From IMG/VR virus record IMGVR_UViG_3300033156_000808, positions 1 to 38,753 of that record: DNA of 38,753 nt. One strand, 5' to 3'. The position numbers were made by a program, and so were the translations under genes. The stretch is from a virus. The notes under the pieces are model-generated. The model saw only the letters and a program-made list of their open reading frames with translations. It was not told the DNA's origin and ran no database searches. Shown piece after piece: positions 2,781-38,753 of this stretch (the stretch's first letter is position 1; the number at the start of each line of letters is the position of its first letter).

Positions 2781-3605
2781 ATGATAATTCAAAGAAAAAA
2801 AGAAATTATAAAAATGAGAGGGGGTCTTCGTGAACTTCCGTCAGATTCTCGTGATTTCAGCCGAATAAAAGTATTCGGGATGGGGTCTCTTCCTCCTAAT
2901 GAAGATTTTATGGTGGCTGAGCCAATTTCGATTGAAGACCAGAAAGAGACAGATTTTTGCACCGCATTTGCTCTTTCAGCCGTTGCGGAAGACCAAGAAG
3001 GAGTAGATTTAGACCCTCTTTATACTTTTGCCAAAATTAAGCAAATCGAAGGGGATTGGCGAAGCTGGGGAGCAGATTTAAGAAGTGCGTGTAAGGCGGC
3101 GGTTAAATTCGGGTTTATTAAAAAAGAAAATTCACCATTTGATCTTGATAATTATTCCCGGGATATAGTAGCAAATTGGGAAAATTGGCCGAAAGAACTG
3201 GACGACCTTGCTAAAAAACACCGAAAAATGAGCTATTTTCGAGTGGATGATAGTGTAGATACCTTTAACGCATTTAGAGCCGCCCTGTGGCAAAATAAAG
3301 CGAAAAAGTGTTCAATTTTTACGGGCACGACGTGGCGAGAGAACTGGAATAATGTAAAAGACGGGATAATTCCAGATGAGCCAGGTCCGCCTCTATTCGG
3401 GCACGCAATTAAAATATTTGGTCAAAAAATAATAATCGGCGAGCCTTATTTGATAGCCCAGCAAAGTTTAGGAAAAAAAGAAGGTGATAACGGCTTGCTC
3501 TATTTTAGTCGAAAAGTAATAAATAGAGATTTTAAATATGGAGCTTTTATACAATGGTTAGAAAAATTTAAAAAAAATAATTTATGCCTTCTGAAATTTA
3601 TTTAA
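2781..3605 (+). CDS. Papain-like cysteine protease, altered 3' end
   Basis: A 274-residue C1A-like (papain fold) protein. The nucleophile is Cys60 in IEDQKETDFCTAFALS and the histidine is His208 in LFGHAIKIFG. The place where papain has Asn-Ser-Trp-Gly reads Gln-Ser-Leu-Gly (Gln228), so the usual Asn of the triad is missing. It could act in entry, lysis or on host surface proteins. A second ATG at 2814 (MRGGLREL) is an equally plausible start. The last 18 residues (from QWLEKFKK) look abnormal, because a 143-bp stretch of this gene's 3' part (3408-3550) occurs again at 4079-4221 after an HNH gene. The present C-terminus is probably a product of that insertion. Confidence 0.75.
   Translation: MIIQRKKEIIKMRGGLRELPSDSRDFSRIKVFGMGSLPPNEDFMVAEPISIEDQKETDFCTAFALSAVAEDQEGVDLDPLYTFAKIKQIEGDWRSWGADLRSACKAAVKFGFIKKENSPFDLDNYSRDIVANWENWPKELDDLAKKHRKMSYFRVDDSVDTFNAFRAALWQNKAKKCSIFTGTTWRENWNNVKDGIIPDEPGPPLFGHAIKIFGQKIIIGEPYLIAQQSLGKKEGDNGLLYFSRKVINRDFKYGAFIQWLEKFKKNNLCLLKFI
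3408..3550. repeat. 143-bp direct repeat, copy 1 (inside protease)
   Basis: This matches 4079-4221 with a single mismatch (T at 3436, A at 4107; Ile versus Asn). The copies are offset by 671 bp and flank the HNH endonuclease reading frame. The exact match after the mismatch is 114 bp, the same length as the terminal overlap of this contig. Confidence 0.95.
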
Positions 3606-4240
3606 GAACTGAATATCATAAAAAAAGATTAAGTGAGGGGCAAAAAGGAAGAAAACATACTGAAATAACAAAAAAGAAATTAAGTATAATTGCTCAAAAA
3701 AGAGGTAATAATGGTAATAATTTCCCAAAAGGGCATAAAGGTTTTATTCCGAAAGAAAAATATAAAGAAATCGGAAAAAAAATAAGTAAAGCTTTGATAG
3801 GTAGAAAATTATCAGAAGAACATAAAAGAAAAATTAGTGAAATGCAAAAATTACATCCCCATTCATCTATTTTTAAAAAAGGGCATAAAGGATTTAATGT
3901 TCGCAAAGGAAATAAACATCCTAATTGGAAAGGTGGGATTACTCCAGAGAATAAACAAATTTGGCGAAGTATTGAAATGCGATTATGGCGTGAAGCAGTA
4001 TTTGCCAGAGATAATTGGACTTGTCGAAAGTGCGAAATTAAAGGCGGGAAATTACATCCGCATCACATTCAAAACTTTATTAAAATATTTGGTCAAAAAA
4101 TAATAAACGGCGAGCCTTATTTGATAGCCCAGCAAAGTTTAGGAAAAAAAGAAGGTGATAACGGCTTGCTCTATTTTAGTCGAAAAGTAATAAATAGAGA
4201 TTTTAAATATGGAGCTTTTATTGCCGCCAGAAGAAGCTAA
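3584..4240 (+). CDS. NUMOD3/HNH homing-type endonuclease fused to protease fragment
   Basis: A 218-residue protein. Residues from about 14 to 110 hold NUMOD3-type DNA-binding repeats (KRLSEGQKGRKHTE, ISKALIGRKLSEEHKRKISE, KKGHKGF). An HNH core follows: WREAVFARDNWTCRKC then KLHPHHIQNF. The usual second half of HNH (Asn-Gly-Ile then Cys-x-x-Cys-His) is absent. After HHIQNF the frame passes into the duplicated protease segment (IKIFGQKI to KYGAFI) and stops shortly after. The fusion point lies in a shared ATTAAAATATTTGGTC stretch, suggesting recombination at microhomology. Without the last metal-binding His the enzyme is probably inactive or changed. No intron core is present around it. Confidence 0.8.
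   Translation: MPSEIYLRTEYHKKRLSEGQKGRKHTEITKKKLSIIAQKRGNNGNNFPKGHKGFIPKEKYKEIGKKISKALIGRKLSEEHKRKISEMQKLHPHSSIFKKGHKGFNVRKGNKHPNWKGGITPENKQIWRSIEMRLWREAVFARDNWTCRKCEIKGGKLHPHHIQNFIKIFGQKIINGEPYLIAQQSLGKKEGDNGLLYFSRKVINRDFKYGAFIAARRS
4079..4221. repeat. 143-bp direct repeat, copy 2 (after HNH gene)
   Basis: Second copy of 3408-3550, with one substitution. It supplies the C-terminal end of the HNH-fused frame and probably marks the original 3' continuation of the protease gene. Confidence 0.95.
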
Positions 4241-4931: not shown

Positions 4932-5364
4932 AAAATGGATTGAGAGCGACTTTCGAATGAAGAAGCTCTTAAACGGACTGGCGTTAAACCCGAAAACAAC
5001 CGCCGAAATAGACGAGATGATTGAGAGGGGATTTGCGGTTCGTTATTTCAACCATTTCCCAGACGATGTCACGCCAAGCGAATTCCTCGCTCTAAGAGAT
5101 TTTTATGTTAAAGTCTGGGAAAAAGCCAGAACGCCGAAAGAAATTGGGAAAACAAATCTCATTTTCCTTCGAGCGTTAATAGCTGCAATAATAGACGACA
5201 ACTGTCGCAAATTCCGAAGAAGGACAAAGAGCGGCATCACATTTGAACTCAAATACCTTCCCCCCGAAACCGCTTGGATAACAGCGGAGATAGGATTTCA
5301 GCTCGGAATGGCTTATAATGAGCTGAAGTTTAGGAAGCCAAAATCGAAGAAAAGAACCTCCTGA
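4894..5364 (+). CDS. Hypothetical protein (156 aa), strong RBS
   Basis: I do not recognise this protein. ATG 4894 follows AAAGGAGG at good spacing, so it is preferred over the in-frame TTG at 4876. The product is helical and charged, with Trp-containing segments (NAFKKWIESDFRMKKLL) and a basic C-terminus (KFRKPKSKKRTS). Together with the zinc-ribbon gene before it, it forms a two-gene block whose higher GC and strong SD sites differ from the rest of the genome, suggesting recent transfer. Confidence 0.65.
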   Translation: MRNGENRQENAFKKWIESDFRMKKLLNGLALNPKTTAEIDEMIERGFAVRYFNHFPDDVTPSEFLALRDFYVKVWEKARTPKEIGKTNLIFLRALIAAIIDDNCRKFRRRTKSGITFELKYLPPETAWITAEIGFQLGMAYNELKFRKPKSKKRTS

Positions 5365-5372
5365 GAAAGAAG

Positions 5373-5425
5373 GCGGGGACATCCATTCGATAAGATAGTT
5401 TCAAATCTTATGGCTCTGTCCCCGC
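5373..5425 (+). ncRNA. Structured intergenic hairpin ahead of amidase
   Basis: A perfect 9-bp helix (GCGGGGACA 5373-5381 with TGTCCCCGC 5417-5425) encloses a second 7-bp helix (ATAAGAT 5390-5396 with ATCTTAT 5405-5411). No U-tract follows, so it is not a standard intrinsic terminator. It lies between the SD-rich block and the amidase start at 5445 and may set amidase expression or mark the edge of an inserted block. Confidence 0.6.
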
Positions 5426-5444
5426 AATATTAAAACATAAAACA

Positions 5445-6074
5445 ATGAAAAAAGTTATCTTTTTAAATGCTGGACATTCAAATATCGACCCTGGAGCAAT
5501 AAGCAGATATGGAGTAGAAAGAGATTTAAATGTGGTCATAAGAGATGCTTTAATTCCTAAATTGGAAAGGCAAGGTTTTAAAGTTATGGCAGTGCCAGAT
5601 AATTTGAATCTCACTCAATCCATTGATTGGGTGAACGAAAGAGTGGTGGATATAAACTCGGGACTGGCTTTAAGCATTCACAACAATTGTTGTGGTCACA
5701 CCGGAGCAGAAGCTTATTATTATGCTCATTTTGAAAGTTCCAGAAGAATAGCCAAAGCGCTTGTTGATGAATTTTGTAGAGAAACCGGCATTAAAAATAG
5801 AGGAGCAAGATCTGATTCTATTACAAGATTCGGAGCGTTAAGTTGGATAAGAAGAACTGATTGCTGGGCTACTTTAATTGAATGCGGTTATATGGATTCA
5901 AAAGAAGATATGGATAAAATTATCGGTCATTTTGATTTAATAGCTAAAGGGATTTGTAAAGGCGTTTGTAAGATTTATAATATTCCTTATCAAGAAAAAA
6001 TTTCTCCGAGCAAAGAGTTAAAAAATCGGGAAGAAATCAAAAAAGAGATAATTAGATTAGTAAAATCGTTATAA
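5445..6074 (+). CDS. N-acetylmuramoyl-L-alanine amidase (endolysin), Amidase_3 type
   Basis: A 209-residue protein that should cleave the bond between MurNAc and the L-alanine of the stem peptide. The Amidase_3 signature is complete: His11 in LNAGHSNIDPGA, Glu25, His79 in ALSIHNN, and the catalytic Glu146 in LIECGYMDS. The catalytic domain fills residues 1-180, and a short basic tail (KISPSKELKNREEIKK) follows. There is no signal peptide, so release would depend on a holin; candidates lie on both sides (4304 and 6388). It is the likely phage endolysin. Confidence 0.9.
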   Translation: MKKVIFLNAGHSNIDPGAISRYGVERDLNVVIRDALIPKLERQGFKVMAVPDNLNLTQSIDWVNERVVDINSGLALSIHNNCCGHTGAEAYYYAHFESSRRIAKALVDEFCRETGIKNRGARSDSITRFGALSWIRRTDCWATLIECGYMDSKEDMDKIIGHFDLIAKGICKGVCKIYNIPYQEKISPSKELKNREEIKKEIIRLVKSL

Positions 6075-7942: not shown

Positions 7943-8667
7943 AAGAACTTAAACTATATAACGGGAAAATCAGAATAGATTTTGATCCAGATAATCACCG
8001 ATTCTATCATAAAGACGGCCGTCCGATTCTTTCAGTAACTACCATCACCAGAATCATTGATAAGTCTCGGCCGTTGATTATCTGGGCATCTAATCTTACC
8101 GGAGATTATGTTCTGGCAAATTTAAAACCAGGGAAGATAACTGCCTCCGAGTTAGAAAAAGTTGTTCGTGAAGCTAAAAGACAGCATTCGGTAGTAAAAG
8201 AAGCCGAAGCCAATATTGGAACTGAAATTCATAAATGGATATCTGAATGGATAAAAGGAGAAAAACCCGAAATTCCTGACGATGAGAAAGTAAAAAACGG
8301 AATCATCGCTTTTATGGACTTTCAGCGCCAACATAAAGCCAAATGGTTAGAAAGCGAGAAAATAGTTTATAGTAGGAAATATGATTATGCGGGAGTTCTT
8401 GATGCTATAGCGAAAATTGACGGAAAACTGGTATTAGTGGACTTTAAAAGCACGAACGGTCTTTATCCTGAATTTGCCTTCCAAACAGCGGGATATCAAT
8501 TAGCGTATGAAGAAGAAAAGAAAAAGAAACTGGCCTACCGCTTAATTATAGGATTCGGGAAAAATACAGGAGAATTCCAATTGAAAGAATATAAAGAAAA
8601 CAAGCCGGATAAAGAAACCTTCTTATCCTGCCTGCAATTAAAAAGAAGATTAAAAGAAATAACATAG
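7939..8667 (+). CDS. PD-(D/E)XK nuclease, RecB/Cas4-like
   Basis: 242 residues. Core motifs are visible: His98 in GTEIHKWI, Asp155 in YAGVLDAIAK, Asp168-x-Lys170 in LVLVDFKST, and the helix QTAGYQLAY (182-190) that is typical of RecB-family nucleases. It should be a metal-dependent DNA exonuclease or end-resecting nuclease. It overlaps the preceding gene by 4 bases and is probably its partner in recombination or concatemer handling. Confidence 0.82.
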   Translation: MKELKLYNGKIRIDFDPDNHRFYHKDGRPILSVTTITRIIDKSRPLIIWASNLTGDYVLANLKPGKITASELEKVVREAKRQHSVVKEAEANIGTEIHKWISEWIKGEKPEIPDDEKVKNGIIAFMDFQRQHKAKWLESEKIVYSRKYDYAGVLDAIAKIDGKLVLVDFKSTNGLYPEFAFQTAGYQLAYEEEKKKKLAYRLIIGFGKNTGEFQLKEYKENKPDKETFLSCLQLKRRLKEIT

Positions 8668-8674
8668 AAAAGGC

Positions 8675-8868
8675 TGTGGATAACCCTGTGAATAAAAAGG
8701 AAGAAATATGTGGAAAAATAAATTCAAGAAGGTTATACCCAGAAAAATCCTCCTCTTATCCACAGACTTATCCCCAAGTTATCCACAGTTTTACCGAAAA
8801 AAAAGAGAGGTCACGAACAAAATAAGAAATCCTAATAATAATAATAAATTTTATAATATTATTATTAG
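8675..8868. other. oriC-like replication origin (DnaA boxes plus AT-rich repeat)
   Basis: Consensus DnaA boxes (TTATNCACA): reverse strand at 8675-8683 and 8687-8695; forward strand at 8756-8764 and 8779-8787. One-mismatch boxes lie at 8709-8717 (reverse) and 8768-8776 (forward). The left group points left and the right group points right. They are followed by an A/T-rich inverted repeat with 12-bp arms (8832-8843 and 8857-8868), a good unwinding element. No replication initiator or polymerase gene is present, so host DnaA is the likely initiator. The whole 8668-8881 gap is used by this element. Confidence 0.82.
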
Positions 8869-8881
8869 AAATTAAAAAAAT

Positions 8882-9190
8882 ATGATCGGCGAAATTACTA
8901 AAATACTTCCAATTAGAAATTCAAGAAATTATGGCGATTTGTATATTCGGGTAACATTTAAACTGGAAGGAAGGGGATGGGCAAAAACCGATTTAGTTCC
9001 CGGCTTCAGAAATTATAAGCGATGGAGAAAACTTCTAAAGGTGGGAAATATATTGGGAAATTTAAAAATGAAAGACGAGAAAACGATTGATGCGGATAGC
9101 CAACCAATTTTAATAACCGGAGAAAAAAGCTTCTTGTTAAAAATGCCAGAGAGCCTGAAAGAGCAAGCAAGATTGGGAATATACGGATAA
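8882..9190 (+). CDS. Hypothetical protein (102 aa)
   Basis: 102 residues with a beta-rich N-terminal half (MIGEITKILPIRNSRNYGDL, YIRVTFKLEG) and a basic Trp-containing middle (RNYKRWRKLLKVGNILGNLK). I do not recognise it; an OB-like nucleic-acid binding fold is possible from the pattern. It is the first gene after the origin, and its stop codon lies in the long helix of the following RNA element. Confidence 0.55.
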   Translation: MIGEITKILPIRNSRNYGDLYIRVTFKLEGRGWAKTDLVPGFRNYKRWRKLLKVGNILGNLKMKDEKTIDADSQPILITGEKSFLLKMPESLKEQARLGIYG

Positions 9191-9323
9191 TTGAGTTTTA
9201 TTGGCTGGAGAGACCTTTAGAGTCCCGAAGGCCGGCGGGAGTCCGATGGGTCTCCAGCGGGTTCGATCCCTCCACGAACCTTAATTCCCCAGAGGACTAT
9301 ATCCGGCCAATAGAACTTAATTA
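9188..9323 (+). ncRNA. Large structured RNA element, 136 nt, between two genes
   Basis: The outer arms 9188-9208 and 9303-9323 form 21 continuous base pairs, including three G-U pairs (9193-9318, 9198-9313, 9206-9305). The interior is markedly GC-rich compared with the AT-rich genome and contains further helices: GCTGGAGA...ACC with GGTCTCCAGC (9205-9215 / 9250-9258 region, competing with the base of the outer helix), TCCCG / CGGGA (9223-9227 / 9236-9240), and GGTTCG / CGAACC (9260-9265 / 9275-9280). It also has a tRNA T-loop-like string GGGTTCGATCCC. It starts at the stop of the gene before and ends 2 bases before ATG 9326. Family unknown; it may be a leader switch, processing element or stable small RNA. 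Confidence 0.75.
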
Positions 9324-9325
9324 CT

Positions 9326-9805
9326 ATGAAAGAGAAAGAGAAAATATTAGACATTTTAATACTTATCGGAATAGTAATCATAGTTTCCCTTTACTGGTTC
9401 TTTATTATTAAAATAACAAATGAGACAGAAAGATTATATGAGCGGAAAATAAATATTGAGCGAGTTGGGGAAATGCCAATGATAAACCAGAATACTTTAA
9501 TTGGAATTACTCCGCCAGCGCCGATGAAATTTGAAGTATTGGCGGTAGTTACAGCTTATACTCCAGCGCCGGAAGAAACGGACGACACTCCAGAAATTAT
9601 GGCCAGCGGAGCAAAAGTGTATAAAGGAGCTATTGCCTGCCCAAGAAATATAAAATTAGGAACAATAGTGGAAATAGATGGCCAAACTTATCGATGTGAA
9701 GACAGAACTCATCTAAAATATAATGGCAGATTTGATATCTTAATGTTTAGTAAAAAAGAAGCTAAAGAATTCGGTCGGCAAATTAAAAAGGTTAAAATAT
9801 ATTAA
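9326..9805 (+). CDS. Membrane-anchored 3D-domain peptidoglycan hydrolase
   Basis: 159 residues. One N-terminal membrane segment (residues 9-29, DILILIGIVIIVSLYWFF) is followed by a linker and a 3D (Asp-Asp-Asp) double-psi beta-barrel domain: VVTAYTPAPEETDDTPE, ASGAKVYKGAIACP, then Asp126 in CEDRT and Asp137 in GRFDILM. This family includes lytic transglycosylase-like wall hydrolases. The anchor would place the enzyme on the outer face of the host membrane. Its start lies next to the base of the 9188-9323 RNA helix, so that RNA may control its translation. Confidence 0.8.
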   Translation: MKEKEKILDILILIGIVIIVSLYWFFIIKITNETERLYERKINIERVGEMPMINQNTLIGITPPAPMKFEVLAVVTAYTPAPEETDDTPEIMASGAKVYKGAIACPRNIKLGTIVEIDGQTYRCEDRTHLKYNGRFDILMFSKKEAKEFGRQIKKVKIY

Positions 9806-9842
9806 TGTTCACCTTCCCAACCAAAAAACCCTAAATAAAACT

Positions 9843-10460
9843 ATGAAAAAAGAAAAGAAAATAATACTTGATTTGTGTGGAGGAACGGGTGCTTGGTCAA
9901 GACCTTATAAGGAGGCTGGTTATGATGTTAGAAATATCACTTTGCCAGATTATGATGTTAGAACCTATAAACCACCTGAAAATGTATATGGAATATTGGC
10001 CGCACCACCTTGCACTCATTTGGCGGGAAGCGGAGCAAGATGGTGGAAGAAAAAAGGAAAAGAAGCACTTTTTGAAGCATTGGCAATAGTAGATGCTTGT
10101 ATGAGGATAATTTTAATATCAAAGCCGAAATTTTGGTGCTTGGAAAATCCAGTTGGTAGATTGGTTCATTATTTAGGGAAACCAAAAATGTATTTTAATC
10201 CTTGTGATTTTGGCGACCCTTGGACAAAAAAAACTTGTTTATGGGGAGAATTCAATATACCAAAAAAGAATCCTGTTAAATTATTTATAGACCCAAAAGA
10301 TATTCCAAAAGGTTCTCATCATCAAGATATGGTTTATTCAAAATTATTAAAGCAAAAGAAAAATCCAATTTGGAATATGCCACCAATTAAAGACCGAACA
10401 GAACTAAGAAGCATAACCCCCAAAGGTTTCGCAGAAGCATTTTTTCGGGCTAATCCTTAA
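9843..10460 (+). CDS. Minimal C5-cytosine methyltransferase-like protein
   Basis: 205 residues, much shorter than usual Dcm-type enzymes. Motif I is ILDLCGGTGAWSRPY, motif IV is AAPPCTHLAG with catalytic Cys57, and motif VI is WCLENPVGRL (ENP in place of ENV). The C-terminal RSITPKGFAEAFFRANP resembles the last motif of phage methylases. Most of the target recognition domain is missing, so specificity may be low or partner dependent. It likely methylates phage DNA against host restriction. Confidence 0.72.
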   Translation: MKKEKKIILDLCGGTGAWSRPYKEAGYDVRNITLPDYDVRTYKPPENVYGILAAPPCTHLAGSGARWWKKKGKEALFEALAIVDACMRIILISKPKFWCLENPVGRLVHYLGKPKMYFNPCDFGDPWTKKTCLWGEFNIPKKNPVKLFIDPKDIPKGSHHQDMVYSKLLKQKKNPIWNMPPIKDRTELRSITPKGFAEAFFRANP

Positions 10461-12500: not shown

Positions 12501-13381
12501 ACTATTTCTTAGTCAAACCGCCTTGGGAAGTATTTCAAAGAAATCCGACAAGAAAAATTGTTTTACCGGTAAAAGAATATGACGGAAATAAAGGGAAAAA
12601 CGGAATTGAATTTCCGAAAGAAGGGGGAATTTATAGCTACTTTCTCGGGAAACCATATCCGTTTAAAGGATTTCATTTTGCGGGAGCGGTAAAACAAATA
12701 GCAATATTTAAAAAGTTAATAGCGGAAATGATAAGGATTGTTTATATGACGCCAATAAAGTTTCTTCTACCGCTTATACCGATAATTCCGCAAAGAATAA
12801 TAGACGAAATTTTATTTCAGATGATTGTCTCTCTAGCTGAAATAGGAGAAAAATCGTTAAAAGAATGGTATTTCCAGCCACGATATTTCTGTAAAAGTGG
12901 GCGGGAATTATACCGAACAGGGATGAAAATTGCAGAAAATCAAACAGACCCAAACTTAAAAAATTATTTAAAAAAATTAACAATGATTATCTGCACTATT
13001 TGGGAATTTGATTTAGCTTATCGCTTACGATTTCAAGATATTTTCGGGGGAGAATTAAAAAAAGAAAACCTAGCAGAAAGTCCAGAAAAAGAAATAGAAA
13101 GGATATTTAAGATAATGAGCGAAAGAGAAAATACGGAATATAAAAAAAGGTGGAAATATTTGGGAATTATTATCGCCAAACTGATAAAGAAAAGCAAGTT
13201 AATTAGAAAGCTAATAACGGAGACATTAATGGAAATAAATCAAAAAGAAATAGAATTAGACGAAGGAGATATTTATTGGGGGGCTGGAGATCGCAGTTAT
13301 AATCTCCGGGGAAAATCTTTCAAAGAAAGGTTGTCACACAAAGAAGATTTAATAATTAAACAAAATCAATATGCCGTTTAA
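12473..13381 (+). CDS. Hypothetical protein upstream of groEL (302 aa)
   Basis: 302 residues. The N-terminal third is extended and beta-like (KINYFLVKPPWEVFQRNPTR). A hydrophobic stretch (about residues 95-107, KFLLPLIPIIPQR) and long helices follow, and the C-terminus is polar (EGDIYWGAGDRSYNLRGKSF). I do not recognise a family. It overlaps groEL by 11 bases, so the two are probably translationally coupled. It may be a client or partner of the phage chaperonin; that is inference from gene order only. Confidence 0.55.
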   Translation: MSKNRSEKINYFLVKPPWEVFQRNPTRKIVLPVKEYDGNKGKNGIEFPKEGGIYSYFLGKPYPFKGFHFAGAVKQIAIFKKLIAEMIRIVYMTPIKFLLPLIPIIPQRIIDEILFQMIVSLAEIGEKSLKEWYFQPRYFCKSGRELYRTGMKIAENQTDPNLKNYLKKLTMIICTIWEFDLAYRLRFQDIFGGELKKENLAESPEKEIERIFKIMSERENTEYKKRWKYLGIIIAKLIKKSKLIRKLITETLMEINQKEIELDEGDIYWGAGDRSYNLRGKSFKERLSHKEDLIIKQNQYAV

Positions 13382-14954
13382 ACCATATCGTATAGTTGAA
13401 ACAGGACCTGAGGTCCGCCTCAAAATTAAAAGAGGAATAGATATAGTAGCCAATGTGGTAAAAAGCACACTGGGAAGTTGTGGTAAAAATGCTTTAATTG
13501 AATGGAAAAGACGGGCGCCAGTAGTAACCAATGATGGAATATCAATTGCCCGAGAGATTTTTCTAAGAGACGAACTGGAAAATTTGGGAGCGCAGACATT
13601 AATTGAGGTAGGAAACAAAACAAACGAAATGGTGGGAGACGGAACAACAACTTCGATGGTATTAGCTTGGGCTATTATCAATGAAATGATGAAAGATGAA
13701 ATTGAGGGAGAATTGCTAATTAAAAACAAAACAAATTTAATGGAGAAATACCGCCAGGTAAAAACGGAACAAAAAAAAGTAATTGAGGAGTTAAATAAAA
13801 TGGCTATCCCCGTAAAAGACAAAGAAACAATGATAAGAGTGGCATCTCTCTCAGTAGAAAATGAAGAATTGGGGAAAATGATAGCTGATATACGAGAAAA
13901 AATAGGAATCAATGGGTTTATAAGCGTCGAGGAAAATTTTGGTTATGAGACCGAATATGAAATAACTTCAGGAATGAAAGTGCCAGGAACTTATGCGGCC
14001 ACTTGGATGATAACTCACTTAGAGAAAAAACAAGCAATTTTTGAAGATTGCCCGATTCTTATTCTTAACCAGAATATAGAAACTGGAAAAGATTTAATGA
14101 GAAATCCAGCTACTTTTGAAGGAATAATTAACGACTTACTTCAATCGGGAGAAAGCAGATTAGTGATAATGGCGCCAAAATTTCTAAATCCTGCTTTGCT
14201 TTCGTTATACATAGCGGCTACAAGGTCAAACTTTAAAACCCTTGCAGTAAAAATTCCCGCTTTAACTAATGAAGAAATTGAAGATATAGCAATTTATACT
14301 GGAGCGAGATTTTTAGATAAAGACAAAGGAGATACAGCTGATAAAGCGGTTAAAGAAGATTTGGGACGAGTAGAAAAGATAATTGTAACCAAAGATGACA
14401 TATTTATTATCGGCGGGAAGAAAAATCGGAAAGCAATAAAAGAAAGAATCGATGCTTTGAAAGAACAGAAAAAACTTGAAAAAACTGATATGTTTAAAAA
14501 AAGATTAGAAAGAAGAATAGCTTCTCTATCTGGTGGGGTAGGATTAATTAAAGTCGGGGCTCGAACCGACACCGAAAGAACCTACCTCAAATTAAAGGTC
14601 GAAGATGGAGATTATGCTTTAAAAGCGGCAATGGAAGAAGGGGTCGTTCCCGGCGGAGGATTAGCCCTTAAGAAGATAGCGGACAAAATGCCAAAAGGAA
14701 GTATTTTGAAGGAAGCCTTAAAAATTCCTTATTTGCAAATTCAAGAAAATGCCGGAGGAAAATTAGAAATAGGAAAAGATGTATTAGATCCAGTAAAAGT
14801 CACCAAAACTGCCTTAGAAAACGCCTGTTCATTAGCGGGAATTTTCATCACAATTGAAAGTGCAATTGCAATGCCGAGAAGTGATTTAGAAGACGAAATA
14901 ATAAACTTTCTCCAAAAATACAAATTGGGGCCGGACGAACCTCAATCAAACTAA
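13371..14954 (+). CDS. groEL: Chaperonin GroEL (HSP60), phage-encoded
   Basis: 527 residues, close to full chaperonin length. Signatures: TNDGISIARE (about 53-62), the ATP site VGDGTTTSMV (DGTTT at 90-94), the VED at the position of E. coli Asp398, EEGVVPGGG in the equatorial domain, and DPVKVTKTALENACSLAG near the C-terminus. The Gly-Gly-Met tail common in bacterial GroEL is missing (ends GPDEPQSN). No groES was found. Divergence from typical GroEL (for example KSTLGSCGKNALIEWKRRAP) suggests a phage lineage. It should form an ATP-driven folding chamber, probably for capsid or tail proteins. Confidence 0.93.
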   Translation: MPFKPYRIVETGPEVRLKIKRGIDIVANVVKSTLGSCGKNALIEWKRRAPVVTNDGISIAREIFLRDELENLGAQTLIEVGNKTNEMVGDGTTTSMVLAWAIINEMMKDEIEGELLIKNKTNLMEKYRQVKTEQKKVIEELNKMAIPVKDKETMIRVASLSVENEELGKMIADIREKIGINGFISVEENFGYETEYEITSGMKVPGTYAATWMITHLEKKQAIFEDCPILILNQNIETGKDLMRNPATFEGIINDLLQSGESRLVIMAPKFLNPALLSLYIAATRSNFKTLAVKIPALTNEEIEDIAIYTGARFLDKDKGDTADKAVKEDLGRVEKIIVTKDDIFIIGGKKNRKAIKERIDALKEQKKLEKTDMFKKRLERRIASLSGGVGLIKVGARTDTERTYLKLKVEDGDYALKAAMEEGVVPGGGLALKKIADKMPKGSILKEALKIPYLQIQENAGGKLEIGKDVLDPVKVTKTALENACSLAGIFITIESAIAMPRSDLEDEIINFLQKYKLGPDEPQSN

Positions 14955-17025: not shown

Positions 17026-17415
17026 ATGCCAAAAGGAGTAAAAGGGTTTCAGCCCGGCAACAAAGAAGCGAAAAAAAAAGGAAAACATAAAAAAACTCTG
17101 GAGAAAGAGATGATTTTAGAATATATGCGGGGACGAATCATTGAAGAGTTTGAAGAATTAATGAACCGCCAAATTGAATTAGCAAAGGGAATTTATATTA
17201 TGAAGCCGATTAAACAAGGCGGGAAAATCGTTGATGTGAAAATATATAAACAAAAGCCAGACCAAAAAAGCTTGGAATACCTTTTCAATGTTGTAGTAGG
17301 AAGACCGACTCAGCCGATTGATATCACTTCAAAAGGAGAAAAAATAACGGGCTGGGATATTATTAAGCCAAAAGAAGTAAAAGAAGATGAGAATAAAGGC
17401 AAAACCAACGCCTAA
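17026..17415 (+). CDS. terS: Small terminase subunit candidate
   Basis: 129 residues. The basic N-terminus (MPKGVKGFQPGNKEAKKKGK) resembles DNA-binding tails of small terminases, followed by a long helix pair (EMILEYMRGRIIEEFEELMN) and a segment ending EYLFNVVVGRPTQPID, a pattern I associate with terminase small subunits. It overlaps the large terminase by 29 bases. It would recognise the packaging site on phage DNA. Confidence 0.7.
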   Translation: MPKGVKGFQPGNKEAKKKGKHKKTLEKEMILEYMRGRIIEEFEELMNRQIELAKGIYIMKPIKQGGKIVDVKIYKQKPDQKSLEYLFNVVVGRPTQPIDITSKGEKITGWDIIKPKEVKEDENKGKTNA

Positions 17416-19780
17416 ACAATACTTAGCGTATGAGAAACTATTAGACAAGACCACTATTTTTCTCCTGTTTGGAGGAGGAGCGGGCGGCGGGAAAGCGCAA
17501 CCTCTCGATAGCTTAGTTTTAACAAAGAAAGGTTTTGTTGAAATGAGAGAATTGAAAGTTGGTGATAAGGTAATTACCCCAGACAATAAAGAAACAGAAA
17601 TAGTGGCAATTTATCCGCAGGGAGAGCAAAATGTTTATGAAATAGAATTTATTGATGGGGCGAAAACAAAAGCTACAGAAGACCATTTATGGGATTGCTG
17701 GATAAGCGGCAGGGGTCAAAAGAGAAGAAAAATAAGAAGCACAAAACAAATTAAAGACATTAAGAGGAACGTGATAATTCCGCTCAGCGAGAAATTAGAA
17801 TTTGGAAAACATTTCAATAAAATTGATAGTTATTTGGTAGGAGTGTTATTGGGGGACGGAGGATTAACTAAAAATAATATAATTTTAACAACGGCGGACT
17901 TGGAAATTGTAGAGAATTTGCGGAAAAGAATAAAAGACTTAAAAATAATTCATAAAAAGAAATATCAATATTCAATCGTTGCTAAAAAACAAAACAAGAA
18001 AGGATATTGGATAAATCCGTTGTTAAATGAATTGCAAAAGCTGGGGTTAAAAAACATTAGAGGCGATAGAAAATTTATTCCTGATAAAATTAAATATGGT
18101 TCGTTAAAAAATAGATTAGAAGTTGTTAGAGGATTAATGGATACTGACGGAACTATTGATAAACGAGGACATTGTAGTTTTTCATCTAAAAGCAAAAAAT
18201 TGGCAGAAGATTTACAATTTATTATCAGAAGTATTGGCGGAAAAGCGACGCTAAAGGCTAAAAAAAAGTTTTGTTATTATAATAAACAAAAAAGAGAAAG
18301 GATTTATTGGGAATTATATATTCAAACAAAAAACAATTTAGATTTGTTTAGCTTAAAAAGAAAGAAAAACAGAGTAAAAAAATTTAACGGCGGAGCGTCA
18401 ATATTGGGGCGGAGAATAAAAAGCATAAAATTCGCCGGTAAAGAAAAAACCCAATGTATTGTTCTTAAAGACAAAAAAGGACTTTATGTTACAGATGATT
18501 TTATAGTTACCCATAATAGTTGGTTGGGGAATGAATGGATAATAGGCAGTGGCTATAATTTCCCGGGAAGCAGATGGTTTATCGGCCGAAAAGAATTGAA
18601 AAGATTAATGCAGTCAACCTTTATTACCTTTCTGAAGGTCTGTAAACACTACGGAATTCCCCAAAGCGATTGGCATTTAAACGGAGTTTACAATTACATA
18701 GAATTTAAAAACGGCAGTCGGATTGATTTATTAGACCTTCGGCAATTACCTTCCGATCCAAGCTATGAAAGATTCGGTTCATTAGAATATACTGGCGGCT
18801 GGATAGAAGAAGGAGGAGAAGTGCCTTTTGCGGCCTTCGATGTTTTAAAAACAAGAATAGGCAGGTGGCGGAATAGAGAATTCAACTTGTCTCCCAAAAT
18901 GTTGATTACCTGCAATCCGACAAAAAATTGGATTTATCCGACAATTTACCGCCCTTATAAAGAAAAAACCCTGCCGAAAGAATATGCGTTCATTCAATCA
19001 TTATACGGAGACAATCCTTATACCGCTCAGGATTATGGGAGAATGCTTGCTCAAATTACCGATAAAAACACCAAAGAAAGATTAATGTTTGGGAATTGGG
19101 AATATGAGGACGATCCGAACGCTTTAATTGAATATGACGCAATTATAGATTTATTTACCAATACAGTTCCCGAAAGCGAAGACAAATTCTTAACGGCTGA
19201 TATCGCTCGCTATGGCCAATCAAAAACAGTAATTTATCTCTGGAAGGGAATGAATCTCTACCGAATCATAGTAAAAGAATCGCAGGGAATTGATAGAACC
19301 ATCGATGATATTCGAGACCTTTTGCGAAATGAAAGAATTCCTTATAGTCACGCCATTGTGGATGAGGAAGGAGTGGGCGGCGGAGTGGTTGATGCATTAA
19401 AAATAAAAGGATTTGTGGCCAACAGCTCGCCGTTAGAAAATCCAATTACCAAAGAGAGAGAAAATTACAGAAACCTAAAGGCTCAATGCGGTTATATGCT
19501 AGCCGAAGCAATTAACAAAAGAGAGATTTCCATAACCGCACCAATTTCAGAAAATTATAAGCAACAAATTATTGAAGAATTGGAGCAACTTCGGGGGAAA
19601 GAAGTCGAGCGGGATGCTCCTCTTCAATTAAAACCAAAAGAAGAAATAATGGAGATAATCGGCCGTTCGCCCGACTTTTCTGACGCAATGCTTCAAAGGA
19701 TGTATTTCTTCCTCAAAAGAGAAGAAAGAAGAATTTCTCCGTCGGTCTTTCGGCCAGGTTATCGTTATCGTTTTAGATAA
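17387..19780 (+). CDS. terL: Large terminase subunit with in-frame intein
   Basis: A 797-residue precursor. Residues 29-36 (GGGAGGGK) are the start of Walker A, interrupted after the Lys by a 341-residue intein (37-377); Ser378 then restores GGGAGGGKS followed by WLGNEW. The spliced product would be 456 residues, normal for TerL. A Walker B-like region is YTGGWIEEGGEV. The nuclease domain shows LTADIARYGQSKTVI, AIVDEEGVGGG and SPDFSDAMLQR. It drives ATP-dependent DNA packaging into the prohead and cuts concatemers. Without splicing the ATPase cannot work. Confidence 0.9.
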   Translation: MRIKAKPTPKQYLAYEKLLDKTTIFLLFGGGAGGGKAQPLDSLVLTKKGFVEMRELKVGDKVITPDNKETEIVAIYPQGEQNVYEIEFIDGAKTKATEDHLWDCWISGRGQKRRKIRSTKQIKDIKRNVIIPLSEKLEFGKHFNKIDSYLVGVLLGDGGLTKNNIILTTADLEIVENLRKRIKDLKIIHKKKYQYSIVAKKQNKKGYWINPLLNELQKLGLKNIRGDRKFIPDKIKYGSLKNRLEVVRGLMDTDGTIDKRGHCSFSSKSKKLAEDLQFIIRSIGGKATLKAKKKFCYYNKQKRERIYWELYIQTKNNLDLFSLKRKKNRVKKFNGGASILGRRIKSIKFAGKEKTQCIVLKDKKGLYVTDDFIVTHNSWLGNEWIIGSGYNFPGSRWFIGRKELKRLMQSTFITFLKVCKHYGIPQSDWHLNGVYNYIEFKNGSRIDLLDLRQLPSDPSYERFGSLEYTGGWIEEGGEVPFAAFDVLKTRIGRWRNREFNLSPKMLITCNPTKNWIYPTIYRPYKEKTLPKEYAFIQSLYGDNPYTAQDYGRMLAQITDKNTKERLMFGNWEYEDDPNALIEYDAIIDLFTNTVPESEDKFLTADIARYGQSKTVIYLWKGMNLYRIIVKESQGIDRTIDDIRDLLRNERIPYSHAIVDEEGVGGGVVDALKIKGFVANSSPLENPITKERENYRNLKAQCGYMLAEAINKREISITAPISENYKQQIIEELEQLRGKEVERDAPLQLKPKEEIMEIIGRSPDFSDAMLQRMYFFLKREERRISPSVFRPGYRYRFR
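17495..18517 (+). mobile_element. Class 3 intein with LAGLIDADG endonuclease in TerL P-loop
   Basis: A 341-residue intein. It starts with Ala1 (AQPLDSLVL), not Cys/Ser/Thr. Block B is TEDHLW (Thr61, His64, Trp66), block F has Cys321 (KTQCIVL), and block G ends IVTHN with Thr339, His340 and Asn341, before Ser+1. Trp/Cys/Thr at B:12, F:4 and G:5 together with a missing N-terminal nucleophile define class 3 inteins, which use the block F Cys for the first step. LAGLIDADG endonuclease blocks are YLVGVLLGDGG (113-123) and VVRGLMDTDG (210-219). Confidence 0.9.
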
Positions 19781-19999: not shown

Positions 20000-20029
20000 T
20001 AAATAACTAAATAGTCCTACCATACATTG

Positions 20030-20081
20030 GCGGACAATCAAAAGTTCCTGAGAGAAATCTCGGGGATTAGTGATTGTCCGC
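20030..20081 (+). ncRNA. Structured 5' leader ahead of portal gene
   Basis: A perfect 11-bp helix GCGGACAATCA (20030-20040) / TGATTGTCCGC (20071-20081) encloses a second hairpin, CCTGAGA / TCTCGGG with a GAAA loop. There is no U-tract. It ends 9 bases before ATG 20091 and lies in the leader of the late promoter, so it may control portal/late operon translation or RNA stability. Confidence 0.7.
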
Positions 20082-20090
20082 TATTTAATT

Positions 20091-22300: not shown

Positions 22301-22638
22301 TGAAAAAATTCTTCCAAAAACTTCTCATAAATTTCATTGTTAAAAATTTGTTCAATGGAATAACCGAGGATGATATTTTAAGAATCGTTAGTCGGGAAGT
22401 TGTGTTTTACAAAGGAAAAAAATTGCCCCAAGAGGATGTGGAAAGAATAAAAAACGAGGCGGAAAGATTTATTAAATCGCCTCTTTGGCGATATCTTCAC
22501 GATGAAGTGAGATATCAGGCAAACTTGCGGATGTTTAATAAAAGTCAAACAGTTGATGATATCTTGGCAGGGAAAATGGCTTTATGGGTGTTAGAAGTAA
22601 TCAGAAAAAAACTAAACGTTCTTCGACAATTAAAATAG
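22300..22638 (+). CDS. Hypothetical protein between portal and scaffold (112 aa)
   Basis: 112 residues, helical, with an amphipathic N-terminus (MKKFFQKLLINFIVKNLFNG) and a Trp-containing central part (SPLWRYLHDEVRYQANLRMF). It starts at the last base of the preceding stop (TAATG). Its last base is the first base of the following RNA helix. Not recognised. Confidence 0.55.
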   Translation: MKKFFQKLLINFIVKNLFNGITEDDILRIVSREVVFYKGKKLPQEDVERIKNEAERFIKSPLWRYLHDEVRYQANLRMFNKSQTVDDILAGKMALWVLEVIRKKLNVLRQLK

Positions 22639-22727
22639 TATTGGCGATCGAAAGAGGGTTTTAATCCCGTTTGGGCTTAACTTTTTAGAGAAGCTAAGGG
22701 AGGAAACTCCCTTTAGGTCGCCAATAC
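22638..22727 (+). ncRNA. Structured RNA element ahead of scaffold gene
   Basis: The outer helix GTATTGGCGA (22638-22647) / TCGCCAATAC (22718-22727) is perfect over 10 bp. Inside are a GGG/CCC hairpin, a GCTT/AAGC hairpin and a strong AAGGGAG / CTCCCTT hairpin capped by a GAAA tetraloop (22696-22713). This looks like a multi-branched RNA. Together with 22729-22825 it fills the 194-bp gap 22639-22832. Confidence 0.7.
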
Positions 22728-22728
22728 G

Positions 22729-22825
22729 ACCAGGTAGCAGGCACCTTTAAGCCTGAAAGGTCGGGTGGCTGGCACCCACTTAAAAAGCCAGAAAATTAAT
22801 GGGAGCTCGCAACCATTAAAGCGAG
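22729..22825 (+). ncRNA. Second half of scaffold leader, with interlocking helices
   Basis: Several short helices are visible: GACC / GGTC, CAGG / CCTG, GGGTG / CACCC and TGGCT / AGCCA. Next to the start codon, TTAATGG (22796-22802) pairs with CCATTAA (22813-22819), and CTCGC (22806-22810) pairs with GCGAG (22821-22825) across it. The last two helices interlock, so they form a pseudoknot or two exclusive states. The ATG is at 22833. Confidence 0.6.
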
Positions 22826-22832
22826 AAAAATT

Positions 22833-23429
22833 ATGGAAGAGGAGATAAAAGAAAGGGAAGGGCAACCTACTCCAGCTCCAGAGGAAACGCCCGAAGACCT
22901 GAATTCTTCTGAGGATTTACCGCAGAAACCGGAAGAAACTTCAGAAGAAGAAGGCGCCGGAGATTCTTTATCCGAGCAAAAGACAACATCGGAAAGCTTG
23001 CAAGAAGAGTTAAATAAAAAAAATACTCAGATTCTGCAAGCCGAACATGTTATCGAGAACCTTAAAAAAAAGGTTAAAGCTCTCGGCGGAACTCTCGATG
23101 AAGAACCCGTTACTTTAGATAAAGTAAAAGAGGTTATTCAAGAGAATTTCGACGACTTCCGAAAAATAGTTGGTTCAGAAGTAGCTAAGCAAATAAAAGA
23201 AGCGGTGGCTACTATGATTAGCCGACAGGGAAGATCCAAAGGAAGCGGATCTTCGGGTCATCCTTCTCCAGCACCTGAAATTCCAATGCCTCCTTTATCG
23301 CCAGATGATAAAGCTTATATAGCGAGAAGCGGGGTAAAATGGGACGGTAAAAGAGGAGGATGGATAACCAAAAGCGGAAGATTCGTTCCTTATAATCCAA
23401 AAGAAGGATTGCCGGGAGTGGTAAAATAA
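22833..23429 (+). CDS. Capsid scaffolding protein candidate
   Basis: 198 residues. A disordered acidic N-terminus (REGQPTPAPEETPEDLNSSE) is followed by a coiled coil (about 50-115: LQEELNKKNTQILQAEHVIE), a helical region, and a basic C-terminus that may bind capsid protein (WDGKRGGWITKSGRFVPYNP). This build and the position upstream of the decoration and capsid genes are typical of phage scaffolds. A long structured leader precedes it. Confidence 0.7.
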   Translation: MEEEIKEREGQPTPAPEETPEDLNSSEDLPQKPEETSEEEGAGDSLSEQKTTSESLQEELNKKNTQILQAEHVIENLKKKVKALGGTLDEEPVTLDKVKEVIQENFDDFRKIVGSEVAKQIKEAVATMISRQGRSKGSGSSGHPSPAPEIPMPPLSPDDKAYIARSGVKWDGKRGGWITKSGRFVPYNPKEGLPGVVK

Positions 23430-37615: not shown

Positions 37616-38753
37616 ATGAAAAAAAATAAATTTCTCTTATTAACCATTATACTTATAGGATTAATTGGAATAATTTCCAACTACTCAATTTCTTTTACCA
37701 AAAAAGAAATAATGGCGGCAACTGTATGTTATCCGTATCAAGGATGCACTGGTCAAGATACTTCTAATTGGACGGGATATGTTTACATTACTAACGGAAC
37801 TTGGGGAACTACTACGGTTACTGGCGGAGGTTCTCTTTGGACAGACGCTGGCACTTATACTTATTTGACCGACACTTCATCGGATTTGGTTGTGGGCGAT
37901 AACTCAACCTCAACCGCTCCTTTCTGGGTTGATGTTTCCAGCGGGAATTTGGTGATTACGGGAAATTTGAGTTCGGCTGACAGTTTCTTAACTTCAGAAT
38001 CAGACCCAATCTTTATAGCCGCTTCATCGTCTTTGCCAAATCTCCACACTGTGGGAACTATTGGAACCGGCACTTGGCAGGGAACGGCAATAGCCGATGC
38101 TTTTATTGCTTCTTCTACAGAGTATTTAGCTGATAATGATACCCATTTATCTCAAGAAGAGGTAGAAGATTATGTCGGCGGAATGCTGGACGGGACAGAG
38201 ACTCTGATAACTGTGGACTATGTTGACGGTTCGGGGAATATAAACTTTATAGTGAATGACGACTTAAGTCAGTATTCAAACGCTACTTCGGGATTTTTAA
38301 CTTCAGTTGCTTATTCTGATTTAACAGGCTATCCCGCCGATGTAATAACCGCTGGGACTTTAATAGATTGGTCAGCCTCAACAACTCTAAATGTAGATAA
38401 CGATTTACACAATTATAATTGGGGAAATGTTGTAGATGCAGATATTACAGATACTCTTACCTGTTCTACTATTGTAGATGCAGATAAGGGGGATGTGGTT
38501 ATTTCTTCGGGGGTTTGGAATTTAGACACCAATTCAGTGGCAGATAATGAGATAGATTATAGCAATGTAACCCTTTCAGATTTTACAAATGATGCCGATT
38601 ACGCCACCACAGGTTCTACTGTCGCTAAAGCCAATGCTCTGGCTTCCAATCCTTCTAATTGTTCATCGGGTCAAGCTCCTTTGGGAATAGACGCTTCTGG
38701 AAATGTGGAAAGTTGTTTTGATGTCTGGACGGAAGCGGAGAACACGGCGGCTG
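37616..38753 (+). CDS. Tail fibre protein, N-terminal part (continues at base 1)
   Basis: ATG 37616 begins a 793-residue protein that continues through the contig junction to the stop at 1356-1358. The N-terminus MKKNKFLLLTIILIGLIGII is a signal peptide or membrane anchor. Later segments (LHTVGTIGTGTWQGTAIADA, ASNPSNCSSGQAPLGIDASG) are fibre repeats; the last form continues in the first bases of the window. The gene lies 1 base after the collagen-like fibre gene, in the late operon. Confidence 0.85.
   Translation, partial: MKKNKFLLLTIILIGLIGIISNYSISFTKKEIMAATVCYPYQGCTGQDTSNWTGYVYITNGTWGTTTVTGGGSLWTDAGTYTYLTDTSSDLVVGDNSTSTAPFWVDVSSGNLVITGNLSSADSFLTSESDPIFIAASSSLPNLHTVGTIGTGTWQGTAIADAFIASSTEYLADNDTHLSQEEVEDYVGGMLDGTETLITVDYVDGSGNINFIVNDDLSQYSNATSGFLTSVAYSDLTGYPADVITAGTLIDWSASTTLNVDNDLHNYNWGNVVDADITDTLTCSTIVDADKGDVVISSGVWNLDTNSVADNEIDYSNVTLSDFTNDADYATTGSTVAKANALASNPSNCSSGQAPLGIDASGNVESCFDVWTEAENTAA
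38640..38753. repeat. Terminal direct repeat, right copy (circular closure)
   Basis: Identical to 1-114. Remove one copy to obtain the 38,639-bp circular sequence. Confidence 0.95.

Follow-up and report, generated by a model that had tools for sequence, protein, structure and literature searches.

Why should a phage enclose the whole gap between two genes in a long RNA helix that begins on the stop codon of one and ends just short of the start codon of the other? The question is raised by a 136-nucleotide (nt) element at positions 9188-9323 of the IMG/VR virus record IMGVR_UViG_3300033156_000808, whose full stretch of 38,753 nt we refer to as the window. We find the element to be a real, strongly structured orphan RNA without a database match, and we tentatively read it, at a probability of roughly 45%, as a cis-acting intercistronic messenger RNA (mRNA) element that buries the initiation region of the next gene, at 9326, which encodes a 3D-domain protein resembling cell-wall enzymes. 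How such a lock would work we infer only from position, sequence and energetics. The argument begins with two flanking open reading frames (ORFs) and the two arms of the helix between them:

8882-9190, plus strand: upstream ORF of 102 amino acids that matches no family and whose stop codon starts the helix.
9188-9209, plus strand: 5' arm of the closing helix, beginning with the TAA that ends the upstream ORF.
9302-9323, plus strand: 3' arm of the closing helix, spanning -3 to -24 relative to the downstream start codon.
9326-9805, plus strand: downstream ORF of 159 amino acids; its N-terminal stretch looks hydrophobic by eye, and a 3D-domain (phrog_6631, phrog_2307) lies towards the C terminus.

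The closing helix and its strand

Twenty-two uninterrupted base pairs (bp) join 9188-9209 (TAATTGAGTTTTATTGGCTGGA) to 9302-9323 (TCCGGCCAATAGAACTTAATTA) on the plus strand. A first-pass annotation of this DNA had recognized the helix and its G-U pairs, of which there are exactly three, but had counted 21 bp. This is the longest uninterrupted RNA-type helix in the window on either strand, at a span of at most 200 nt. Dinucleotide shuffles of the whole window (n = 40, one strand each) reached a maximum of 21 bp, with at least 20 bp in 2 of the 40 and 22 bp in none, so that such a helix is expected by chance in no more than about one window in twenty. We regard the outer helix as secure as a pairing. 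It fills the gap exactly, as the first reading had it: the first three pairs are formed by TAA at 9188-9190, and the last lies 2 nt before the ATG at 9326.

The fold as a whole also exceeds chance. On the plus strand, the predicted fold of 9170-9340 has an energy of -62.6 kcal/mol (z -3.9), which none of 200 shuffles reached, and 9188-9326 folded alone gives a z of -5.75, whereas the minus-strand fold is unremarkable (z -1.1 to -1.75). With DNA energy parameters the asymmetry persists (z -4.9 on the plus strand, -1.4 on the minus strand), because wobble pairs turn into A-C mismatches on the other strand. Such asymmetry is expected of an RNA; it upholds the earlier proposal of a structured plus-strand RNA element and favours a role in the plus-strand transcript.

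The same comparison bears on the idea that the element acts as DNA, either as part of a replication origin or as a small mobile inverted-repeat insertion. The arms do look like terminal inverted repeats, and DnaA boxes and an AT-rich stretch lie some 300-500 bp upstream. We nevertheless consider a DNA-level role highly improbable, given the asymmetry that wobble pairs impose even under DNA parameters, the single copy in the genome, the lack of a relative elsewhere and the lack of a target-site duplication by eye. The upstream cluster, at 8670-8870, is itself origin-like, with DnaA boxes at 8675 (-), 8756 (+) and 8779 (+), a 15-bp inverted pair and an AT-rich stretch.

Three further identities were discarded. 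Protein coding was rejected: although one plus-strand frame stays open across the element (9100-9411), no long ORF running from start to stop lies in it, and Pfam has no match to its peptide. Frameshifting or bypass from the upstream gene was dropped in the absence, by eye, of a slippery heptamer near the stop or a matching landing codon. A minus-strand string resembling group I intron S has no partner by eye. Nor is the element an intrinsic terminator by the usual pattern of a GC hairpin followed by a T run: no terminator-like site occurs in 8600-9900.

A possible lock on the 9326 gene

A Shine-Dalgarno core match is found at 2 of 33 starts of this phage. The sequence ahead of its genes is rich in A, with an enrichment at -3 and -6. 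Flavobacterium johnsoniae, also without Shine-Dalgarno sites, shows a similar pattern, and there A-3/A-6 and the secondary structure near the start codon tune initiation (PMC6847099). Against this background the 9326 start stands apart: the mean unpaired probability of its -18 to -1 region is 0.01, the lowest of 34 starts (next 0.29, median 0.655), and opening -15 to +5 has a computed cost of 16.4 kcal/mol with the element free. Because the start is so extreme an outlier in accessibility in a phage with almost no Shine-Dalgarno sites, the gene would be expected to stay silent unless the helix, and in particular its AU-rich outer half, is opened.

The most natural opener would be a ribosome arriving at the upstream stop codon, that is, at the first three base pairs. 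By melting the outer 12-16 bp, the terminating ribosome would free the 9326 start, a form of translational coupling by RNA unfolding. When such a ribosome is modelled by masking the 5' arm to 9199 or 9203, the opening cost falls to 6.5 or 4.9 kcal/mol. The start might also, or instead, be freed when a protein or small molecule binds to the GC-rich interior, when the helix is cleaved, or when transcription begins within the element, as it does in gene e of phage T4.

Known systems offer partial parallels. RNA-unfolding translational coupling has been reviewed (PMC12548453), and in two of its cases, MS2 coat-lysis and Escherichia coli rpmI-rplT, a start is likewise hidden in structure that upstream translation would open; here, in difference, the stop codon itself forms the first pairs of the helix, the entire 135-nt gap lies within it, and coupling is a proposal. 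In T4 genes e, soc, 49 and I-TevI, as we suggest here, a helix in phage mRNA sequesters a gene's initiation region, and the helix over the start of gene e, which encodes lysozyme, cuts synthesis about 100-fold on long early transcripts (PMC3014915). The present helix covers the initiation region in the manner of the gene e type, from -24 to -3 with an unpaired probability of 0.01, and both genes are of a cell-wall-degrading type, the 9326 gene by its 3D-domain likeness. The differences from gene e are that we have a 136-nt multi-hairpin element, no Shine-Dalgarno sequence and no recognized internal promoter. The earlier label of wall hydrolase is sensible, though weak. In its C-terminal half the 9326 product matches phage 3D-domain proteins (33-39%), some of them annotated as lytic transglycosylases, and its 3D-domain resembles those found in phages of Bacillus, Listeria and Geobacillus.

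Several points weigh against a lock. No homologue was found, hence there is no sign of selection on the pairing, and related phages make no general use of stop-to-start closing helices (170 gaps). Coupling has been found to be weaker when structure follows closely on a stop codon (work cited in PMC12548453), the upstream stop and the 9326 start are 135 nt apart in sequence, and in the model, masking the outer arm leaves the start no more than about 25-40% unpaired. A bypass of the gene e type finds no sigma-70-like promoter within the element, by a sigma-70 pattern that may not be this phage's promoter type. Finally, a simple lock could do with a smaller and less GC-rich interior, so the element may have a binding partner or some further function. 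Should the lock prove real, it would show how RNA structure alone lets a phage whose host does not use Shine-Dalgarno initiation silence a potentially harmful cell-wall gene within an operon, and the locus would be a clean test case for a terminating ribosome opening a 22-bp stop-to-start helix. We think it very unlikely that it goes further and represents a new kind of intercistronic RNA, in which the whole gap is folded to bring the stop beside the next start and the terminating ribosome is handed over, or switched through the GC-rich core, without a Shine-Dalgarno sequence.

The duplex could also serve RNase III, which by cutting it in a polycistronic mRNA would separate two messages and give the 9326 gene a new 5' end. 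The early intergenic RNase III sites of T7 are long duplexes between co-directed phage genes, and the present element resembles them in setting: the named genes around the 9326 gene are all co-directed, and two turns of uninterrupted double-stranded RNA, 22 bp where about 20 bp or more are called for, lie between the two genes. Other strong intergenic hairpins in the same genome (5364-5445 and 19996-20095) fit this picture, as does an enrichment of stable folds in the gaps of related phages, 18% of which have z < -3. Yet the interior is more branched and GC-rich than at the T7 sites, its multiple hairpins would be superfluous for processing, and no homologues were found. With cleavage here hypothetical, we count processing as an unlikely contender, and it and the lock may both hold.

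The GC-rich interior

The contrast in composition noted in the first-pass annotation is borne out: GC content is 0.59 in the 92-nt interior compared with 0.37 genome-wide, and just 0.07% of 92-nt windows are equally GC-rich. Several inner helices had been proposed as well, and three hairpins are predicted:

9210-9254, plus strand: inner hairpin, GAGACCT 9210-9216 with GGGTCTC 9248-9254, and TCCCG 9223-9227 with CGGGA 9236-9240 on top; single-sequence prediction.
9259-9281, plus strand: inner hairpin, GGGTTCG 9259-9265 with CGAACCT 9275-9281, including a T-loop-like string; single-sequence prediction.
9286-9296, plus strand: third inner hairpin, weak, 3 bp; predicted, poorly determined.

This interior fold is one predicted solution among close alternatives. 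The 9210-9254 hairpin, for example, could give way to a pairing of GCTGGAGA at 9204-9211 with TCTCCAGC at 9251-9258, with a predicted stacking energy of -17 kcal/mol; this pairing competes with the inner part of the outer helix and has almost zero weight in the predicted ensemble.

Such competition is what an autoregulatory operator or riboswitch-like sensor might exploit, in which the interior would bind a ligand or a protein, of phage or host origin, and the closing helix would act as the expression platform. A sensor would account for the GC-rich interior, but the near weightlessness of the alternative pairing, the failure of any known aptamer in Rfam to match and the lack of homologues make it decidedly unlikely in our view. 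We also weighed a stable trans-acting small RNA, or the RNA of a ribonucleoprotein, embedded in the operon and freed by cutting the outer helix. The compact, multi-branched predicted fold with its long closing stem, the GC-rich interior in an AT-rich genome and the restriction to the plus strand would suit such a molecule; no promoter- or terminator-like sequence bounds the element, however, and it has neither an Rfam relative nor a second copy in the genome. We judge this origin unlikely.

The T-loop-like string reported earlier, GGTTCGATCC, is present at 9260-9269 and resembles the T arm of a transfer RNA (tRNA), but the hint of a tRNA did not hold: no acceptor, D or anticodon arms are seen, the predicted fold places its bases in a different hairpin, and ARAGORN found 0 genes, which led us to reject a tRNA, a tRNA remnant or a transfer-messenger RNA. 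Local alignment of 9243-9273 with the 16S ribosomal RNA tail of E. coli, at its 3' end, gave p 0.064, and worse results with Bacteroidota-like and generic tails; we set the likeness aside as post hoc chance.

Relatives and other structures of the genome

The view of the element as an orphan, also that of the first-pass annotation, agrees with each of the searches made. At curated thresholds, Rfam has no match anywhere in the window, and at relaxed thresholds its best match to the element (E 6.5, small nucleolar RNA sR40) is at chance level. No relative was found by blastn among 50,697 phage records or 72,556 plasmids, nor did three interior DNA patterns (19-23 specified bases, exact or near-exact) match in IMG/VR, in collections that may omit records very near the window's own genome. 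Homologue searches were also started from the downstream protein, the upstream protein, the methyltransferase, the portal and an exonuclease profile. Phages reached through the neighbouring methyltransferase and exonuclease (L002-L016, L054-L058) have only scattered genes in common with this one. The element was not detected in them by blastn, nor by a covariance model, R1, applied to about 30 related loci and contigs, whose sensitivity to diverged relatives is limited because it was built from one sequence. As an orphan RNA without an Rfam relative, the element could seed a family if close metagenome relatives turn up.

A comparison of gaps suggests that the element is singular and that these phages do not habitually carry such helices. 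Of 351 same-strand gaps in the window and its relatives, only the one that holds this element has a closing helix of more than 13 bp. In 170 filtered gaps of related contigs, a set from which the ORF filter happened to leave out the element's own gap, closing helices are not above those of shuffles, and we rejected a general stop-to-start bridging in this phage group.

Structured gaps of other kinds do occur. In two distantly related phages we observed a multi-hairpin element before a start codon, with a long closing stem and two inner hairpins (L057, about 2110-2205), and strong hairpins directly after an exonuclease stop and before a start codon (L054, 6151-6224); neither shows sequence likeness to the 9188-9323 element. 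Within the window, 22636-22836 (+) is a structured gap unmatched in Rfam at curated thresholds, with a nested fold of z -5.0: a long hairpin, 22638-22727, whose first base is also the last of the upstream stop codon, is followed by three successive H-type pseudoknots, seen by eye at 22738-22761, 22763-22791 and 22796-22825, which lead up to the ATG at 22833. A very stable hairpin (20026-20087, plus strand, z -6) lies just before a portal-like gene, and a strong hairpin at 5364-5445, GCGGGGACA...TGTCCCCGC, occupies the gap preceding an amidase gene. The hexamer ATTGGC, common to the base of three structured elements, proved uninformative, being over-represented genome-wide and mostly in genes.

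Beyond these structures, the window contains a 143-bp near-identical direct duplication (3408-3550 and 4079-4221) adjoining an HNH endonuclease ORF, and a phage-encoded GroEL-like chaperonin (13371-14954) with at most about 36% identity to the chaperonins of known phages. The ORF of the terminase large subunit, 17387-19780, carries an internal LAGLIDADG domain, a likely intein. An exact 114-bp direct terminal repeat (1-114 and 38640-38753) indicates that the contig is probably a complete genome.
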